From the NCBI GenBank assembly GCA_017430965.1, contig JAFRLX010000153.1, positions 1 to 61,835 on the forward strand: a DNA stretch of 61,835 nt, in the 5' to 3' direction. Shown here piece by piece: positions 11,934-59,432 of the stretch. The position numbers and the translations under genes are program-made. The stretch comes from Clostridia bacterium. Its GTDB lineage: Bacteria > Bacillota > Clostridia > Oscillospirales > Acutalibacteraceae. The stretch's first letter is position 1; the number at the start of each line of letters is the position of its first letter. The notes under the pieces are model-generated. The model saw nothing but the letters and a program-made list of their open reading frames with translations, was not told where the DNA came from and did not search any database.

Positions 11934-12229
11934 TCGACAAATAAGAATTTGCGGAGCCCTTGCGGCTCCCGAATCCTTATTTGTAATGCGGAATTCGGAA
12001 TGCGGGATGCGGAATTAAAGGTGGCAAGGCTACGCCTTGCATTGTAAAGATTTCTCGGCAAGCTCGAAATGACAATTCTTTAGCTATTACAAGGATTTTT
12101 ACGCACGTGTAATACCTAATTGCTCTTAAAATAGAGCGTAGCGGAACGAGTGCGAGTGCCTCGCCCGATAATTCCGAACTCCGAATTCCGAATTGCAGAG
12201 CAAAACTCGTTTTGCTCTGCTCGACAAAT
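11934..12229. mobile_element. 278-bp MITE-like heptad element with 9-bp target duplication
   Basis: The direct repeat TCGACAAAT occurs at 11934-11942 and 12221-12229, bracketing a 278-bp unit without a gene. Inside are GGAATGC-type heptads (11985-12016) and their inverted counterpart (12170-12194), a hairpin at 11938-11983 with core GGAGCC/GGCTCC, and a perfect 12-bp stem GCAGAGCAAAAC at 12195-12220. After the left heptads comes AAAGGTGGCA and another hairpin (GCAAGGC-TAC-GCCTTGC). The 13-mer ATTCCGAACTCCG (12171-12183) recurs at 19962-19974. It lies directly after the nth stop codon and ahead of rarA, both on the minus strand. Confidence 0.65.
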
Positions 12230-12231
12230 CC

Positions 12232-12876
12232 TTATTTGACTTTCTTCATACACACCTCATTGAGTGCGCAATCTTCGCACTTGGCTTTGCGCGCCGAGCA
12301 CAGCGCCCTGCCGTGGAGCACAATGCGGTGGCAAAAGTTGGAGCTCTCACTCTCGGGAATTAACTTGCGCAGCTGCATTTCAATTTTCAGCGCCGGGTTG
12401 CTCTCACCCTGTTTGACAGAGCACAGACCCATGCGCTGTGAAATGCGAATCATGTGCGTGTCGACCACATAGCCGTCCTTACCGTACACATCCCCGCAAA
12501 TGAGGTTGGCAGTCTTTCTGCCCACACCGGGAAGTTTCACCAATTCCTCGATGGAATCGGGCACGGTGCCGCCATAATCACTGCGAATCATTTGGCACAG
12601 CGCCAGGATATTTTTAGATTTGGAATTGTAAAAGCCGCAAGAGTGAATATAGGTGCCGATTTCTTCGGCGGTACTCTCGCAAAAGGCATCCAAATCCGGA
12701 TAGCGTTCAAATAAAGCAGGAGTTACCTTGTTGACCCGTTCATCCGTGCACTGGGCGGAGAGCACCACTGCAATGAGCAGCTGCAGCGGGTCGCTGTACT
12801 GCAGGGAACACAGCGCATCCGGGTACATTTCTTTCATTTTTTCCACAATGAGGGCGGCGCGTTCTTTCTTTGTCAT
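12232..12876 (-). CDS. nth: endonuclease III
   Basis: A DNA glycosylase/AP lyase for oxidised pyrimidines. The 214-aa protein has the helix-hairpin-helix LPGVGRKTAN with the catalytic Lys (K121), the catalytic Asp in VVDTHM (D139), and a C-terminal 4Fe-4S motif C-X6-C-X2-C-X5-C. Length is standard. Its ATG overlaps the stop of the NUDIX gene, and a repeat element sits between its stop codon and rarA. Confidence 0.97.
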   Translation of the reverse strand: MTKKERAALIVEKMKEMYPDALCSLQYSDPLQLLIAVVLSAQCTDERVNKVTPALFERYPDLDAFCESTAEEIGTYIHSCGFYNSKSKNILALCQMIRSDYGGTVPDSIEELVKLPGVGRKTANLICGDVYGKDGYVVDTHMIRISQRMGLCSVKQGESNPALKIEMQLRKLIPESESSNFCHRIVLHGRALCSARKAKCEDCALNEVCMKKVK

Positions 12877-19860: not shown

Positions 19861-19992
19861 CTTCAATAGTTTGGAGTGTGAAGAGTGGAGAGTGGAGTTG
19901 TGGTGGCAGCGCATCGCGCTGCATTTTAATGTGCCGCTTGCGGCACCACCTTTCATTCCGCATTCCGAACTCCGCATTCCGCATTCTTCAAT
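19861..19992. mobile_element. heptad/palindrome element, acn/icd copy, with 7-bp target duplication
   Basis: CTTCAAT flanks the unit at 19861-19867 and 19986-19992. GGAGTG-type heptads (19873-19900) face an inverted GGAATGC array (19955-19986). Inside are two hairpins: GCAGCGC-ATC-GCGCTGC (19906-19922) and GTGCCG-CTTG-CGGCAC (19931-19946). The minus-strand motif GGAATGAAAGGTGG matches GGAATTAAAGGTGG of the nth/rarA copy, and ATTCCGAACTCCG is shared exactly. Confidence 0.62.
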
Positions 19993-55807: not shown

Positions 55808-56964
55808 TGCAGGTAGGGTATATCAGCGTTTCTATCCATTATGCCGCCAAACAGGTCGGTGGTGTAAACACCGCTGTCCTGCATCTGCAAGTGGAAATAC
55901 ACGAAGTACAGTATAACACACGCAACGAAAACGGGCCCTTTCGTGTGCTTGGGCAGCACATGTTTTAAAATAAACGGTAACAGCAAAATGGTAAACACAT
56001 CTGTGTAAATCGGTAGTCTTCCGATAAAGATGCCGCTTGTTACCACACCGACCGCATAGAGACCTGCGGTGATTAACGACATATTTACCATCACATTCAC
56101 ATAGCGGTTTTCATACGCCGCAATCTCTTTTTTAAACACAAACGCCAGTGCCGGTGTGACCATGGAAACCAGGAATCGAAAAACATTTACACCATCGTCT
56201 TTTGCAAAGTTTTCCGCCACATTATACTCCGTGTAGGTGTCGTCTAAAATGCCGACAAACTGATTGGGGAAAATTAATACCACCGCCATCGTTGCCAGGA
56301 TACAGGCATAAATGCCATAGCTCCAGTTCTTCATGTGGACAATAAAGTAAATCGGCACCAATATCCACGCGGTTTTGTGAATGAAATACATAATGAAGAT
56401 GAGAATCAGAAACTTTACTAATTTCTTTTCAATGATTAATCTCCAACATGCAAAGACAATAGATGCCACCAAAAACTGCCGAATGCCGTTAAACAGCCAG
56501 TAAAAATACAAGCCGGTCATAAAAAGGTAAAAACTTAATACAACATCATCGGAGTATCGGCTGATACCGTAATAAAAACACACACCGGAAATAATCGCAA
56601 TCGTGGCGATGTACATATGCCAGGTAAACCCGAGCCGCTTTAAGATGATTTGAAACACTTCAAACAGCGGCGCTTTTTCCTGCCCGGATTCAAACAGATA
56701 GCTCCAATTGAACTCTGTGCCCATCTCAATATAAGAGCGCACATAGCCCGCTGTATCTACCACACCGTTGCGAATCGCCGCCCAGAAGATTAAGTACCCC
56801 ATCATCACAAAGGTGAGAACATACACGACACCGGGGCGCCTCTGCTTAGTCGATCCTGTCGCCTCAAGCAAGCTATACTGCGGTTTGCGCAAATTAATAA
56901 CCAGTGCGCAAATGCCGCACACTAACAAGCATGTGTAATATACCCATATATAAGTCGGTTTCAT
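55804..56964 (-). CDS. EpsG-family O-antigen/exopolysaccharide polymerase
   Basis: A 386-aa protein with about 11 hydrophobic segments and EpsG-type features: FWAAIRNGVVDTAGYVRSYIEMG and a large periplasmic loop, then FLMTGLYFYWLFNGIRQFLVASIVFACW and FHKTAWI-like YFIHKTAWILVPI. It would polymerise flipped repeat units. Its start overlaps the transketolase stop. Confidence 0.88.
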   Translation of the reverse strand: MKPTYIWVYYTCLLVCGICALVINLRKPQYSLLEATGSTKQRRPGVVYVLTFVMMGYLIFWAAIRNGVVDTAGYVRSYIEMGTEFNWSYLFESGQEKAPLFEVFQIILKRLGFTWHMYIATIAIISGVCFYYGISRYSDDVVLSFYLFMTGLYFYWLFNGIRQFLVASIVFACWRLIIEKKLVKFLILIFIMYFIHKTAWILVPIYFIVHMKNWSYGIYACILATMAVVLIFPNQFVGILDDTYTEYNVAENFAKDDGVNVFRFLVSMVTPALAFVFKKEIAAYENRYVNVMVNMSLITAGLYAVGVVTSGIFIGRLPIYTDVFTILLLPFILKHVLPKHTKGPVFVACVILYFVYFHLQMQDSGVYTTDLFGGIMDRNADIPYLH

Positions 56965-57896
56965 TAAATAATTTCTTCCTTTACTTTCTTGGCGATTTGC
57001 TCTGCGTTCATGCCATAGAGGGAACGCAGGTAGTTTTGATTACCCACTGCTGTGCAATATTCATCGGGAATCCCGATTTTGATGAGCTTCACTTTTGCAC
57101 CGAGGTCGGTAATCACTTCCGACACCGCGCTTGCAAAGCCGCCGAGAATATTGTGCTCCTCCACCGTGACAATGGTGTCATACTGTTCGGCGCACTTGGC
57201 AATGGTCTCTCTATCAATAGGCTTAACGGTATGGAAGGAATACTGTGCCACACCGATACCGTCCTTTTCCAGCAGGTCTGCCGCGGCAGTTGCTTCTTCC
57301 AAAATAGCACCGGTCGAGAAGACGGCAATTTTCTTTTGTGCACCTTCTTGCGGCGCTCTGACTTGCAGAGCTTTGCCGATTTGGAAGTTCTCAATTTTCT
57401 CGTGAACCTTCTTTTCGCCGCCTCTGCCAAGGCGCAGGTAAACCGTGCCGGGCGTGTGAATAATCGCTTTGACCGCTTCCGCCGCTTCGGTCGGGTCACC
57501 GGGGCACACCACAGTCACGCCGGGAAGTGCGCGGATAATCGCAATATCATCCGTCGCCTGGTGACTCATGCCGAGTGAACCGTACACAAAGCCGCCGCCC
57601 ACGCAAATAATTTTGACATTCGCTTTCATATAAGCGCAGTCGTTACGAATTTGTTCCACACACCTGAGTGTCGGGAAATTGCCGATGGAATAGGTGAACA
57701 CGGTTTTGCCGCACAGCGCCATGCCCGCCGCAATGCCGGTCATGCTCTGCTCGGCAATGCCGGCATTGGTGAATTGGTTGGGCAGCTGCTCGTAAAACGG
57801 TTTTAATACCCCGAAGCCCAAGTCGCCGGTAATGAGTTCAATATCTTTATTCTTTTTCGCTTCTTCAATCAGCGTTCTTATTACTGTATCGCGCAT
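56964..57896 (-). CDS. transketolase C-terminal section
   Basis: A 310-aa polypeptide corresponding to the pyrimidine-binding and C-terminal domains of transketolase: ELITGDLGFGVLKPFYEQLPNQFTNAGIAEQSMTGIAAGMAL, and TVEEHNILGGFASAV. It pairs with the TPP-binding N-terminal section at 58488-59432; split transketolases of this kind are common in capsule loci and probably make a special ketose or branched sugar. The two halves are separated here by a four-helix-bundle gene on an inserted element. Confidence 0.93.
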   Translation of the reverse strand: MRDTVIRTLIEEAKKNKDIELITGDLGFGVLKPFYEQLPNQFTNAGIAEQSMTGIAAGMALCGKTVFTYSIGNFPTLRCVEQIRNDCAYMKANVKIICVGGGFVYGSLGMSHQATDDIAIIRALPGVTVVCPGDPTEAAEAVKAIIHTPGTVYLRLGRGGEKKVHEKIENFQIGKALQVRAPQEGAQKKIAVFSTGAILEEATAAADLLEKDGIGVAQYSFHTVKPIDRETIAKCAEQYDTIVTVEEHNILGGFASAVSEVITDLGAKVKLIKIGIPDEYCTAVGNQNYLRSLYGMNAEQIAKKVKEEII

Positions 57897-57931
57897 AATT
57901 CAAATCCTTTTGCGCATAGCGCAATCAAATT

Positions 57932-58468
57932 AGGAATGAGGAGTGAGGAATGAGGAATGGATGGCGGGACACCCGCACCCGTTTTTATTCCTACGCCTCA
58001 ATTCCAAAAATTCAGTTTTCTTGTTTATCTTTCAGTGTCTTTGTTGATGCAGATAGTATTCTCTTGATTTCCGAGCAAGAATCAGTTAAAGTATCATACC
58101 GCTCTTTATCAAGATAATTTGTTTCGAATAATAACTCTAACCAATATAAAGTTTCATTGCATTCTTTCAACGCAATATAAAGTTTATTTAATAAATCCTT
58201 TTCACTGCTGGCATATTCACCTTCTGCAATATTTGCTCCTATACTTGTCCCGCTTCTGAGCAATTGTTTAGAAAGAACAAACTCTTTTCCGGTTTCGGTT
58301 AAGAATTTATAAGTGCTTACTATGGCTATAGCAAATTGTATACTTTTCCTTTTTGCAATGTTTTCTTTTTTTACCATATTTTCACGAGTTCCTAAGTTTT
58401 TATTCTATCATTCGGGTATGGGCGGAGCCCATCCTCAATTCCTCTTTTCTCTTTCCTCTTTCCTCATT
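57932..58468 (-). mobile_element. heptad-flanked element carrying a four-helix-bundle gene, between tktN and tktC
   Basis: Four AGGAATG-type heptads at 57932-57959 face an inverted, more purine/pyrimidine-biased array at 58433-58468. Each array is followed inward by GGATGG and a short GC hairpin (GCGGG-ACA-CCCGC at 57964-57976; ATGGGC-GGA-GCCCAT at 58418-58432) and then ACCCG. Outside lie two more palindromes: TTGCGC-ATA-GCGCAA at 57910-57924 and a 15-bp stem at 58472-58505. The architecture matches the gene-less elements at 11934 and 19861. No clear target duplication was found. Confidence 0.6.
58012..58377 (-). CDS. four-helix-bundle protein of the 23S rRNA intervening-sequence (S23/IVP) family
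   Basis: A 121-aa soluble, all-helical protein with the family core LSKQLLRSGTSIGANIAEG followed by SSEKDLLNKLYIALKECNETLYWLELL and CSEIKRILSASTKT. Members occur inside 23S rRNA intervening sequences of Leptospira and Coxiella, and the Avd accessory proteins of diversity-generating retroelements share the fold. The biochemical role is unknown. No reverse transcriptase or template repeat is nearby. The gene interrupts an otherwise adjacent transketolase pair and is bracketed by inverted heptad arrays, so it is probably the cargo or the mover of a mobile element. Confidence 0.9.
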   Translation of the reverse strand: MVKKENIAKRKSIQFAIAIVSTYKFLTETGKEFVLSKQLLRSGTSIGANIAEGEYASSEKDLLNKLYIALKECNETLYWLELLFETNYLDKERYDTLTDSCSEIKRILSASTKTLKDKQEN

Positions 58469-58471
58469 TAT

Positions 58472-58505
58472 CCGAGTTGGCGAGAATTTATTCTCGCCAA
58501 CTCGG
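58472..58505 (-). other. perfect 15-bp hairpin spanning the tktN stop codon
   Basis: TTCTCGCCAACTCGG (58491-58505) is in the last codons of tktN, and its exact inverse, CCGAGTTGGCGAGAA, follows the stop (58472-58486). The 4-nt loop contains the TAA. There is no T-run on either side. It parallels the hairpin over the acn stop codon. Confidence 0.8.
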
Positions 58506-59432
58506 GTGCCATGTTGCACTCGTGGTATGGTCGTTGTAAATATCCGCGCCCTCGGGAACCGGTGTGGGGTTCTCAATGCCATTCGGTGTATACGGGTCTT
58601 CTACACCGGCGGGTTTGATTTTGTGCAATTCATTGACCGCCAAATCATATTCCCACCCGTCGTGCGGGAAGCGGTAGTGCCACAAAATATCAAACTCCAT
58701 AAACTCAATGCCGAAACCTTTTTTGGTGTTGGCAATGATGACTTTCGGTTTTTCGTTATCAAATTCTTTCTTGAAAGCTTTGTCTAACTCGTTGTGGTCG
58801 TTGCCGTTGATGCTCACGACATTCCAACCGAAGGCTTCCCACTTTGCTTCAAAGTCACCGAGCGCCACGGTCTTCTCACAGAAGTCCATGCTCTGCATCA
58901 TATTGTGGTCGACAATCGCGGTGAGGTTCTTGAGGTCGTTATGCGCGGCAAACATCGCCGCTTCCCACACCGAGCCTTCATCGCACTCACCGTCACCGAG
59001 CACCACATAAACTTTATAATCCTTGTGGTCTTTGAGCCCGGCATATGCCATGCCTGCCGCCACGGGCAACCCGTGCCCGAGCGAGCCGGTCGACAAATCG
59101 ACCCCCGGCACATGGTGGCTCACATGCCCGGAAAGGCGAGAACCGTTTTGGTAGTGAGTCTTTAATTCTTCTGTTTCAAAAAATCCGCTCTCGGCAAGCG
59201 CCGCATACACACTTGCACCTGCGTGCCCTTTGGAAAGAATAAACCTGTCGCGGTTTTCGTCCTTCGGGTTTTGCGGGTCTACGCGCAGCACCTCGGCATA
59301 GAGCTTGCCCATCACATCGGCAACGCTCAAAATGGATGCCAGGTGGGAACCGCCGGAAAGGTGTGTCATTTCCACGCCGTGTCTTCTGATTTTCCACGCT
59401 AATTGTTCGCTGGTCATGTTCTTCTTCATCAT
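58488..59432 (-). CDS. transketolase N-terminal section
   Basis: A 314-aa TPP-binding half: LSGGSHLASILSVADVMGKLY, SKGHAGASVYAALAE, STGSLGHGLPVAAGMAYAG and the TPP motif GDGECDEGSVWEAAMFAAHNDLKNLTAIVDHN. Works as a heterodimer with the C-terminal section at 56964. Its last codons form one arm of a perfect hairpin that includes the stop. It overlaps the sugar-transferase gene by 4 nt. Confidence 0.93.
   Translation of the reverse strand: MMKKNMTSEQLAWKIRRHGVEMTHLSGGSHLASILSVADVMGKLYAEVLRVDPQNPKDENRDRFILSKGHAGASVYAALAESGFFETEELKTHYQNGSRLSGHVSHHVPGVDLSTGSLGHGLPVAAGMAYAGLKDHKDYKVYVVLGDGECDEGSVWEAAMFAAHNDLKNLTAIVDHNMMQSMDFCEKTVALGDFEAKWEAFGWNVVSINGNDHNELDKAFKKEFDNEKPKVIIANTKKGFGIEFMEFDILWHYRFPHDGWEYDLAVNELHKIKPAGVEDPYTPNGIENPTPVPEGADIYNDHTTSATWHPSWRE

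Follow-up and report, generated by a model that had tools for sequence, protein, structure and literature searches.

Inverted heptad arrays bracketing an S23 gene in a transketolase gap: an element resembling rRNA intervening sequences, outside rRNA and probably slowly mobile

The S23 gene and its flanks in the tktN-tktC gap

The window, as we call the whole stretch of DNA analyzed here (61,835 nt; contig C15 of draft genome G000, which has 167 contigs), contains the genes for the two halves of transketolase, tktN and tktC, separated by 591 nt. Within the gap lies a gene of the S23, or 23S_rRNA_IVP, four-helix-bundle family, bracketed by two inverted arrays of 7-nt units (heptads), which we refer to as its arms (Table 1). 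This arrangement, proposed in a first-pass annotation made from the sequence alone, was borne out by gene calls, by family matches to PF05635 and TIGR02436, and by repeat search, and a direct reading gave the same order of GGATGG, GC hairpin, and ACCCG inward of each array. A GGGCGGGACACCCGCACCCG-type hairpin module similar to this inner module comes after the arrays in congeners. The palindromes placed outside both ends are also present, with the qualification that the one on the tktN side consists of the 3′ end of tktN and an inverted copy of it. PF05635 was the sole Pfam match of the S23 gene, and no transposase gene was found in the element. The S23 relatives in the PDB, 2rld and 2gsc, each have five chains as deposited, and a Xanthomonas S23 structure is cited as pentamer support in a Coxiella study (PMC4990558).

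Table 1. Features of the transketolase locus and two gene-less elements, in window coordinates
Feature	Position	Strand	Basis
S23 / 23S_rRNA_IVP four-helix-bundle gene, 121 aa	58012..58377	-	PF05635, E 6.4e-31; TIGR02436, E 4.4e-34
Host gene tktN, transketolase N-terminal half	58488..59432	-	gene calls and family match
Host gene tktC, transketolase C-terminal half	56964..57896	-	gene calls and family match
Heptad array, 4 units of AGGAATG type (AGGAATG AGGAGTG AGGAATG AGGAATG); downstream arm in gene orientation	57932..57959	+	
Heptad array, looser and inverted; upstream arm; gene-strand reading AATGAGGAAAGAGGAAAGAG...	58439..58469	+	
Inner module: GGATGG, hairpin GCGGG-ACA-CCCGC, ACCCG	57959..57981	+	read in sequence
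Inner module: GGATGG, hairpin around 58418-58432, ACCCG	58413..58434	-	read in sequence
Palindrome, perfect 16-nt arms; tktN 3′ end plus its inverted copy	58472..58505	.	repeat search and congener comparison
Small palindrome TTGCGC-ATA-GCGCAA preceding tktC	57910..57924	.	read in sequence; hairpin in predicted fold
W1, gene-less inverted-heptad element, AATGCGG type, behind nth	11935..12238	.	
W2, gene-less heptad element, GAGTGGA / GGAATGC arms, behind acn	19867..19985	.	

Period-7 runs number eight in the window, against a mean of 0.28 and a maximum of 2 in 40 first-order Markov simulations. Read on the gene strand, the RNA of the gap folds at a predicted -171.1 kcal/mol, compared with -126.8 kcal/mol (SD 7.0) in 20 shuffles (z = -6.3), and in the predicted minimum-energy fold the two arms pair around the S23 gene and the palindromes form separate hairpins. 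The whole window returned no Rfam match at the gathering score, by which we excluded a known structured RNA or intron. A phage or defense gene was likewise excluded, PHROGs and PADLOC having given no match.

Heptad arms around S23 genes across phyla

S23 genes of many phyla are commonly accompanied by heptad arms that are inverted and polar. The co-occurrence of S23 genes with heptads, which the first-pass annotation had suggested checking, was examined in 90 S23 loci from the same phylum as the window (set 1) and in the best 80 of at least 591 confirmed loci (set 2), for which an S23 peptide motif was the sole criterion and whose contigs represent many phyla, including one contig labeled as a Methanophagales archaeon; flanking arrays were frequent in both. 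With flanks below 90% of the bin length excluded from bin counts, period-7 runs occurred in 80 of 176 set 1 flanks at <200 nt from the gene, in 3/174 at 200 to 400 nt, and in 8/169, 3/165, and 8/152 in further bins out to 1500 nt. The corresponding counts among the best 80 of at least 591 were 69/154 and 2/151, followed by 8/148, 12/140, and 15/133 in the farther bins. The Fisher values (2e-22 and 4e-25) overstate independence, because S23 loci share ancestry. Among the same 176 set 1 flanks at <200 nt, periods 6 and 8 to 12 were each found at most four times, and there was a mild rise at period 4 (84/176) and period 5 (18/176).

An array was present on at least one side at 51/90 loci of set 1 (within 450 nt) and at 49/80 of set 2 (within 400 nt; best 80 of at least 591), and on both sides at 29/90 and 25/80, respectively; a tandem array was absent at the other 31/80 of these cross-phylum loci. 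Where tandem arrays were lacking, a 7-mer often recurred at least five times near the S23 gene (31 of 68 loci with full flanks, versus 3 of 56 control bins), and 122 of 159 S23 loci have either the tandem or the repeated-7-mer form, 11 of 170 loci having been left out of this count for a short flank. In the latter form, seen beside the S23 genes of L002, L004, L037, L039, L041, and L044, 7- to 8-mers are spaced by small hairpins of varying sequence.

Control regions gave a different picture. None of 58 tktN flanks had a period-7 array, nor did all but 1 of 524 windows across 29 tkt loci, and among flanks of DUF559 genes the count was 1/49 (25 loci, five weak ones, L267 to L271, having been dropped from 30), the lone exception adjoining an S23 gene on its contig. 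This last count rules out, as a rule, that DUF559 is a second regular cargo of heptad arms. The DUF559 genes (L201, L245 to L266, and L272 to L274) have distinct flanking palindromes of their own, of the CTCCCTTGTGTAAAGGGAGGTGGC ... TGACGGAGGGATTGT type. We also observed that many S23 genes are only a few hundred bases away from the end of a contig (for example, G211:C30, G211:C25, G138:C126, and G201:C40), a position to be expected if S23 sits in repeats at which assemblies break.

The two arms of a locus belong together. At the 53 of 170 loci with both arms called within 300 nt, the mean match was 18.5 for a locus's own arms inverted, 6.9 for its own arms direct, and 5.6 for arms inverted to other loci; inverted beat direct for own arms at 47 of 53 loci, and the own partner arm was the single best of all partners at 33. 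Read from the outside toward the gene (99 loci, one array each), AG exceeded CT in 76 arrays and CT exceeded AG in 8, with 15 ties. Symmetry of an inverted repeat would not by itself dictate which way the arms are polarized with respect to the gene, so the gene and its arms act as a single unit. The heptad sequence varies from one S23 locus to another; rotation-aligned heptads share a common motif, with an AG core in set 2 (best 80 of at least 591) and A[A/G]T in set 1, and in each set none of 100 column permutations scored as well. At the 111 loci with same-strand neighbors, S23 was codirected with both in 98 and opposed in 13, and neighbors lay on different strands at 33 further loci (5 rRNA loci and 21 loci without a called neighbor on both sides were removed, and genes in this count are crude longest frames). 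Outer hairpins of at least 10 bp were found just outside the arrays in 16/149 cases versus 1/147, 2/146, and 0/146 farther out, and some of them resemble ordinary terminators.

Five of the 170 S23 loci, all from set 1, lie within 23S rRNA. All five have a called array, two of them on both sides, and the S23 frame is broken or partial in two. With cmscan, 23S rRNA was found to surround L108 as well as the additional fetched copies L275 and L277; two identical-copy comparisons for element ends were discarded because the copies were rRNA operons. Since arrays are present at 5/5 of the 23S rRNA loci, rRNA intervening sequences (IVSs) seem to be one subset of a broader type, the S23-heptad element.

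Cyanobacterial plasmids provided eight S23 loci, fetched from 30 matching records, of which seven were examined, the eighth (L285) being a near copy of L284. Heptad arrays flank S23 on both sides in all seven, and S23 is opposed to both neighbors in two (L358 and L360). Among these plasmid loci (L357, L361, and L358), two records have S23 between cas6 and cas4, and one has it between genes for subunits of ribonucleotide reductase. The Calothrix plasmids AP018208 and AP018209 (L284 and L285), which come from one strain, have a common 3.6-kb block with phage-type integrase and S23 genes, and the S23 gene of L284 is flanked by GGGTGTA heptad arms.

Site occupancy changes between related species

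Seven genomes of the genus were sampled, five of them with this tktN. The first-pass annotation held that tktN and tktC normally abut, which is false in the four congeners that have the pair (G448, G449, G450, and G452): heptads and a hairpin fill gaps of 93, 90, and 121 nt in G448, G450, and G452, and heptads and a DUF559 gene occupy 639 nt in G449 (L201). It advised a search for strains in which tktC directly follows tktN; in these four the gap, though not closed, never carries S23 (0/4), and for this reason we reject the idea that the gap is an ordinary spacer in which the gene is resident. Elsewhere in the same operon, S23 is present at site A in G449, G450, and G452, G448 having only an array and a hairpin there, and at site B, behind a ugd-like gene, in 4/4 congeners but not in the window. 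At both sites the arm sequence differs between some species and the inverted partnership is kept. The window S23 is 63 to 69% identical to the site B copies, and a move of S23 out of site B into the tkt gap was therefore an appealing idea, but the clade support was 0.24 and we dropped it. S23 matches per genome number 4, 8, 9, 8, 7, 9, and 2 in the seven genomes, fragments counted. The annotation had named two results that would speak against mobility, namely, S23 genes of relatives lacking such flanks and a gene-bearing gap conserved in all relatives; neither was seen, since S23 flanks are frequent and site occupancy varies between species.

Selection on S23 was assessed in 27 genus pairs with a synonymous distance of 0.05 to 1.5, a sample of genes other than that of the window. 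In the 11 closest pairs (dN ≤0.11), dN/dS was 0.01 to 0.23, and close S23 pairs in the genus are thus under purifying selection; the remaining 16 pairs, at 0.29 to 1.05, are near saturation.

The pace of turnover can be gauged in Flavobacterium, where a gmk-S23-nadD query had matches in 146 of 150 genomes. Of 30 loci fetched, 29 have gmk and nadD (L398, without nadD, was left out), and S23 is present in 18/29, a sample that leans toward S23 presence because the query contained S23. On the gmk-nadD host tree five S23 changes are needed, four of which are forced by well-supported branches (at least 4 gains or losses). S23 also partly tracks the host genes at this site (r = 0.38; Mantel, 2/2000), so movement here is slow: S23 turnover is real but not fast. 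The S23-less gmk-nadD gaps (L388, L391, L393, L396, L397, and L399) often contain an inverted repeat of another kind, ~110 nt long and of the CGCAGAGATTCGCAAAG type.

Small heptad elements lacking the gene are numerous in the genus. With queries that include host flanks, full or partial matches in the seven genomes number 46, 66, 63, 58, 35, 42, and 5 for W1 and 39, 59, 49, 49, 6, 20, and 2 for W2. At the W1 site, G451 and G453 have no element and G449 has a heptad element of a different kind; at the W2 site, G449 and G451 have other arrays, whereas almost nothing is present in G450. Among the displayed W1 and W2 copies, no consistent target duplication was seen by eye, nor any base-precise recent insertion. 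The first-pass annotation had taken such small elements for gene-less, nonautonomous copies of the S23 element. Their many matches through the genus fit that view, and their ends are common within each family, but their heptads are unlike those of the S23 element and one arm of an element may differ from the other, for which reason we regard "nonautonomous copies" as a plausible reading of these sequences. Array density is no higher where S23 is present, at 5 runs per 400 kb in S23-positive versus 9 per 400 kb in S23-negative genomes of the family (20 + 20 stretches of 20 kb), seven of the latter nine coming from a single stretch, L355 (G011:C48:20001-40000), in a genome 79% complete without an S23 match. 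The arrays of L355 are dense, inverted, and of the TGACAGT type. The numbers of S23 and element matches in the seven genomes are weakly correlated (rho = 0.56 and 0.53; P ≈ 0.2).

In the genus, hairpins over the stop codon of the preceding gene consist of that gene's own 3′ end and an inverted copy. Examples are the palindrome at the end of tktN in the window and those at L202 to L204, L226 to L232, and L312 to L315. Both arms of these hairpins change together between species and pairing is kept. Such a hairpin follows tktN in four of five genomes, including three of the four congeners, with sequences other than the window's. Behind the ugd-like gene it is found at 4/4 occupied sites and 0/1 element-free sites, and behind acn at 6/6 (one nearly empty) and at 0/1 without the element; nth, with a hairpin at just 1/4 occupied and 0/2 empty sites, is a misfit for a strict rule. 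These palindromes may be made by insertion, preferred by insertion, or kept by selection.

Explanations and relation to known systems

The reading that we favor, and judge fairly probable, is that the gap contains one copy of a widespread, small, and probably selfish element, namely, S23 between inverted arrays of ~3 to 5 imperfect heptads, and that the IVS of 23S rRNA is the same kind of thing. The element would be read from the host transcript, and its arms would pair so that the S23 message is enclosed by a stem, which RNase III might cut in the way reported for IVSs of rRNA. The S23 ring protein may recognize AG-containing heptads, perhaps with one 7-nt unit per subunit of a pentamer, and might thereby assist its own element in being copied into intercistronic sites or in persisting there. 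Gene-less array elements could be helped by S23 in the same way, and the copying enzyme would be encoded outside the element. A broader proposal, which we offer tentatively, is that S23-heptad elements form a bacteria-wide class of transposase-less mobile elements in which each subunit of the pentamer binds one AG-containing heptad of the element, as RNA or single-stranded DNA, and a borrowed polymerase or reverse transcriptase, directed by S23, does the copying, with IVSs, many intergenic arrays, and hairpin-spaced 7-mers as its products.

Other explanations need to be weighed against this one. The arms might be mutational by-products, built and homogenized at any inverted repeat by 7-nt slippage and template switching, with S23 as a passenger. 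The arms of orthologous elements do vary together from species to species, and arrays are also found where S23 is missing. A paper on TAACTGA repeats reports heptads to be the most frequent class of repeat in most genomes and proposes polymerase slippage as their cause (PMC4679880). Yet arrays cluster at <200 nt from S23 and not at tktN or DUF559, even though DUF559 has inverted repeats, and they keep one polarity with respect to the gene, which leaves us to consider a by-product origin unlikely. It is also rather improbable, in our view, that the unit is a cassette for regulation or RNA stability, in which the stem and stop-codon hairpins tune the operon, S23 binds its own leader, selection keeps the whole, and absence means loss. 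Such a cassette would suit the co-orientation of S23 with the operon, the gene-end hairpins that keep pairing though both arms change, the terminator-like look of several outer hairpins, and the partly vertical inheritance in Flavobacterium. It sits poorly with the fact that, within a genus, S23 occupies several positions in a single operon, with the other repeats or the DUF559 gene found at the tkt site in congeners, and with elements in rRNA.

We give little credence to a MITE-like derivative of an insertion sequence, mobilized by a transposase in trans and having picked up S23. W1 and W2, to which most genomes of the genus have numerous matches, full or partial, and whose ends are common within each family, are what such a derivative might look like, but end sequences vary between S23 loci, so that terminal inverted repeats are not kept across them, the displayed copies show no consistent target duplication by eye, and S23, rather than a transposase, is the only recognized gene of the element. 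Returning to the selfish-element reading, if it is true, two old puzzles meet in it: the function of S23 ("four helix bundle") proteins and the origin of intergenic heptanucleotide repeats.

Several known systems share single traits with the S23 element. REP/RAYT systems combine GTAG- or CGTC-tagged palindromes with a Y1 transposase, whereas the gene of the window element is S23. Diversity-generating retroelements have a reverse transcriptase with template/variable repeats nearby, and their accessory protein Avd, a pentamer with a four-helix-bundle fold, acts as partner of that enzyme; the S23 element, in contrast, carries no reverse transcriptase gene, and an NCBIfam search assigned the window S23 to TIGR02436 and listed no Avd model. 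In TRAP, the tryptophan RNA-binding ring, every subunit binds a spaced NAG triplet in RNA, to which a pentamer on AG-containing heptads is an analogy, with no homology claimed. The STRR of cyanobacteria are tandem intergenic heptanucleotide repeats, and the window element resembles both them and the TAACTGA repeats in that imperfect units of 7 nt stand in tandem between genes. In marine Beggiatoaceae the TAACTGA repeats, as far as the text consulted describes them, are chiefly direct and have no described tie to S23, whereas the S23 element has two inverted, polar arrays bracketing a gene (PMC4679880). The same text raises the possibility that the mobile element is a protein, as yet unidentified, that binds the repeats (PMC4679880). 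S23 would be a concrete candidate for such a heptad-binding protein.

The closest relatives of the S23 element are the rRNA IVSs of Coxiella, Leptospira, and others. Many IVSs, but not all, carry an S23/23S_rRNA_IVP open reading frame, and RNase III removes them without ligation. The likeness comprises an S23-family open reading frame, complementary ends that form a stem, and sporadic presence, all of which the window copy has, the stem in the predicted fold. The view of the first-pass annotation that the two are the same kind of element is upheld by the shared protein family, by the pairing of the ends in that fold, and by the arrays at the 23S rRNA loci. In the Coxiella IVS, tandem GACAGAT heptamers that vary in number by strain precede S23p, a 28-bp terminal stem is cleaved by RNase III at the first repeat, and S23p is argued to be unexpressed and decaying; older ideas that the IVS open reading frame served mobility are also cited there (PMC4990558). 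A heptad array in one IVS had thus been published (PMC4990558); for the general association of heptad arms with S23, a search of a limited library found no earlier paper. The window copy differs from rRNA IVSs in lying between protein-coding genes, tktN and tktC, rather than in an rRNA helix, and gene-less array elements are spread through the same genomes. Because of this location we class it as IVS-like rather than as an IVS: an object outside rRNA that is probably a slow mobile element, which partly supports the earlier reading of the locus. If the selfish-element reading is correct, the intervening sequence of 23S rRNA would mark one of the sites at which a general element has landed, an element that interrupts operons in many phyla.
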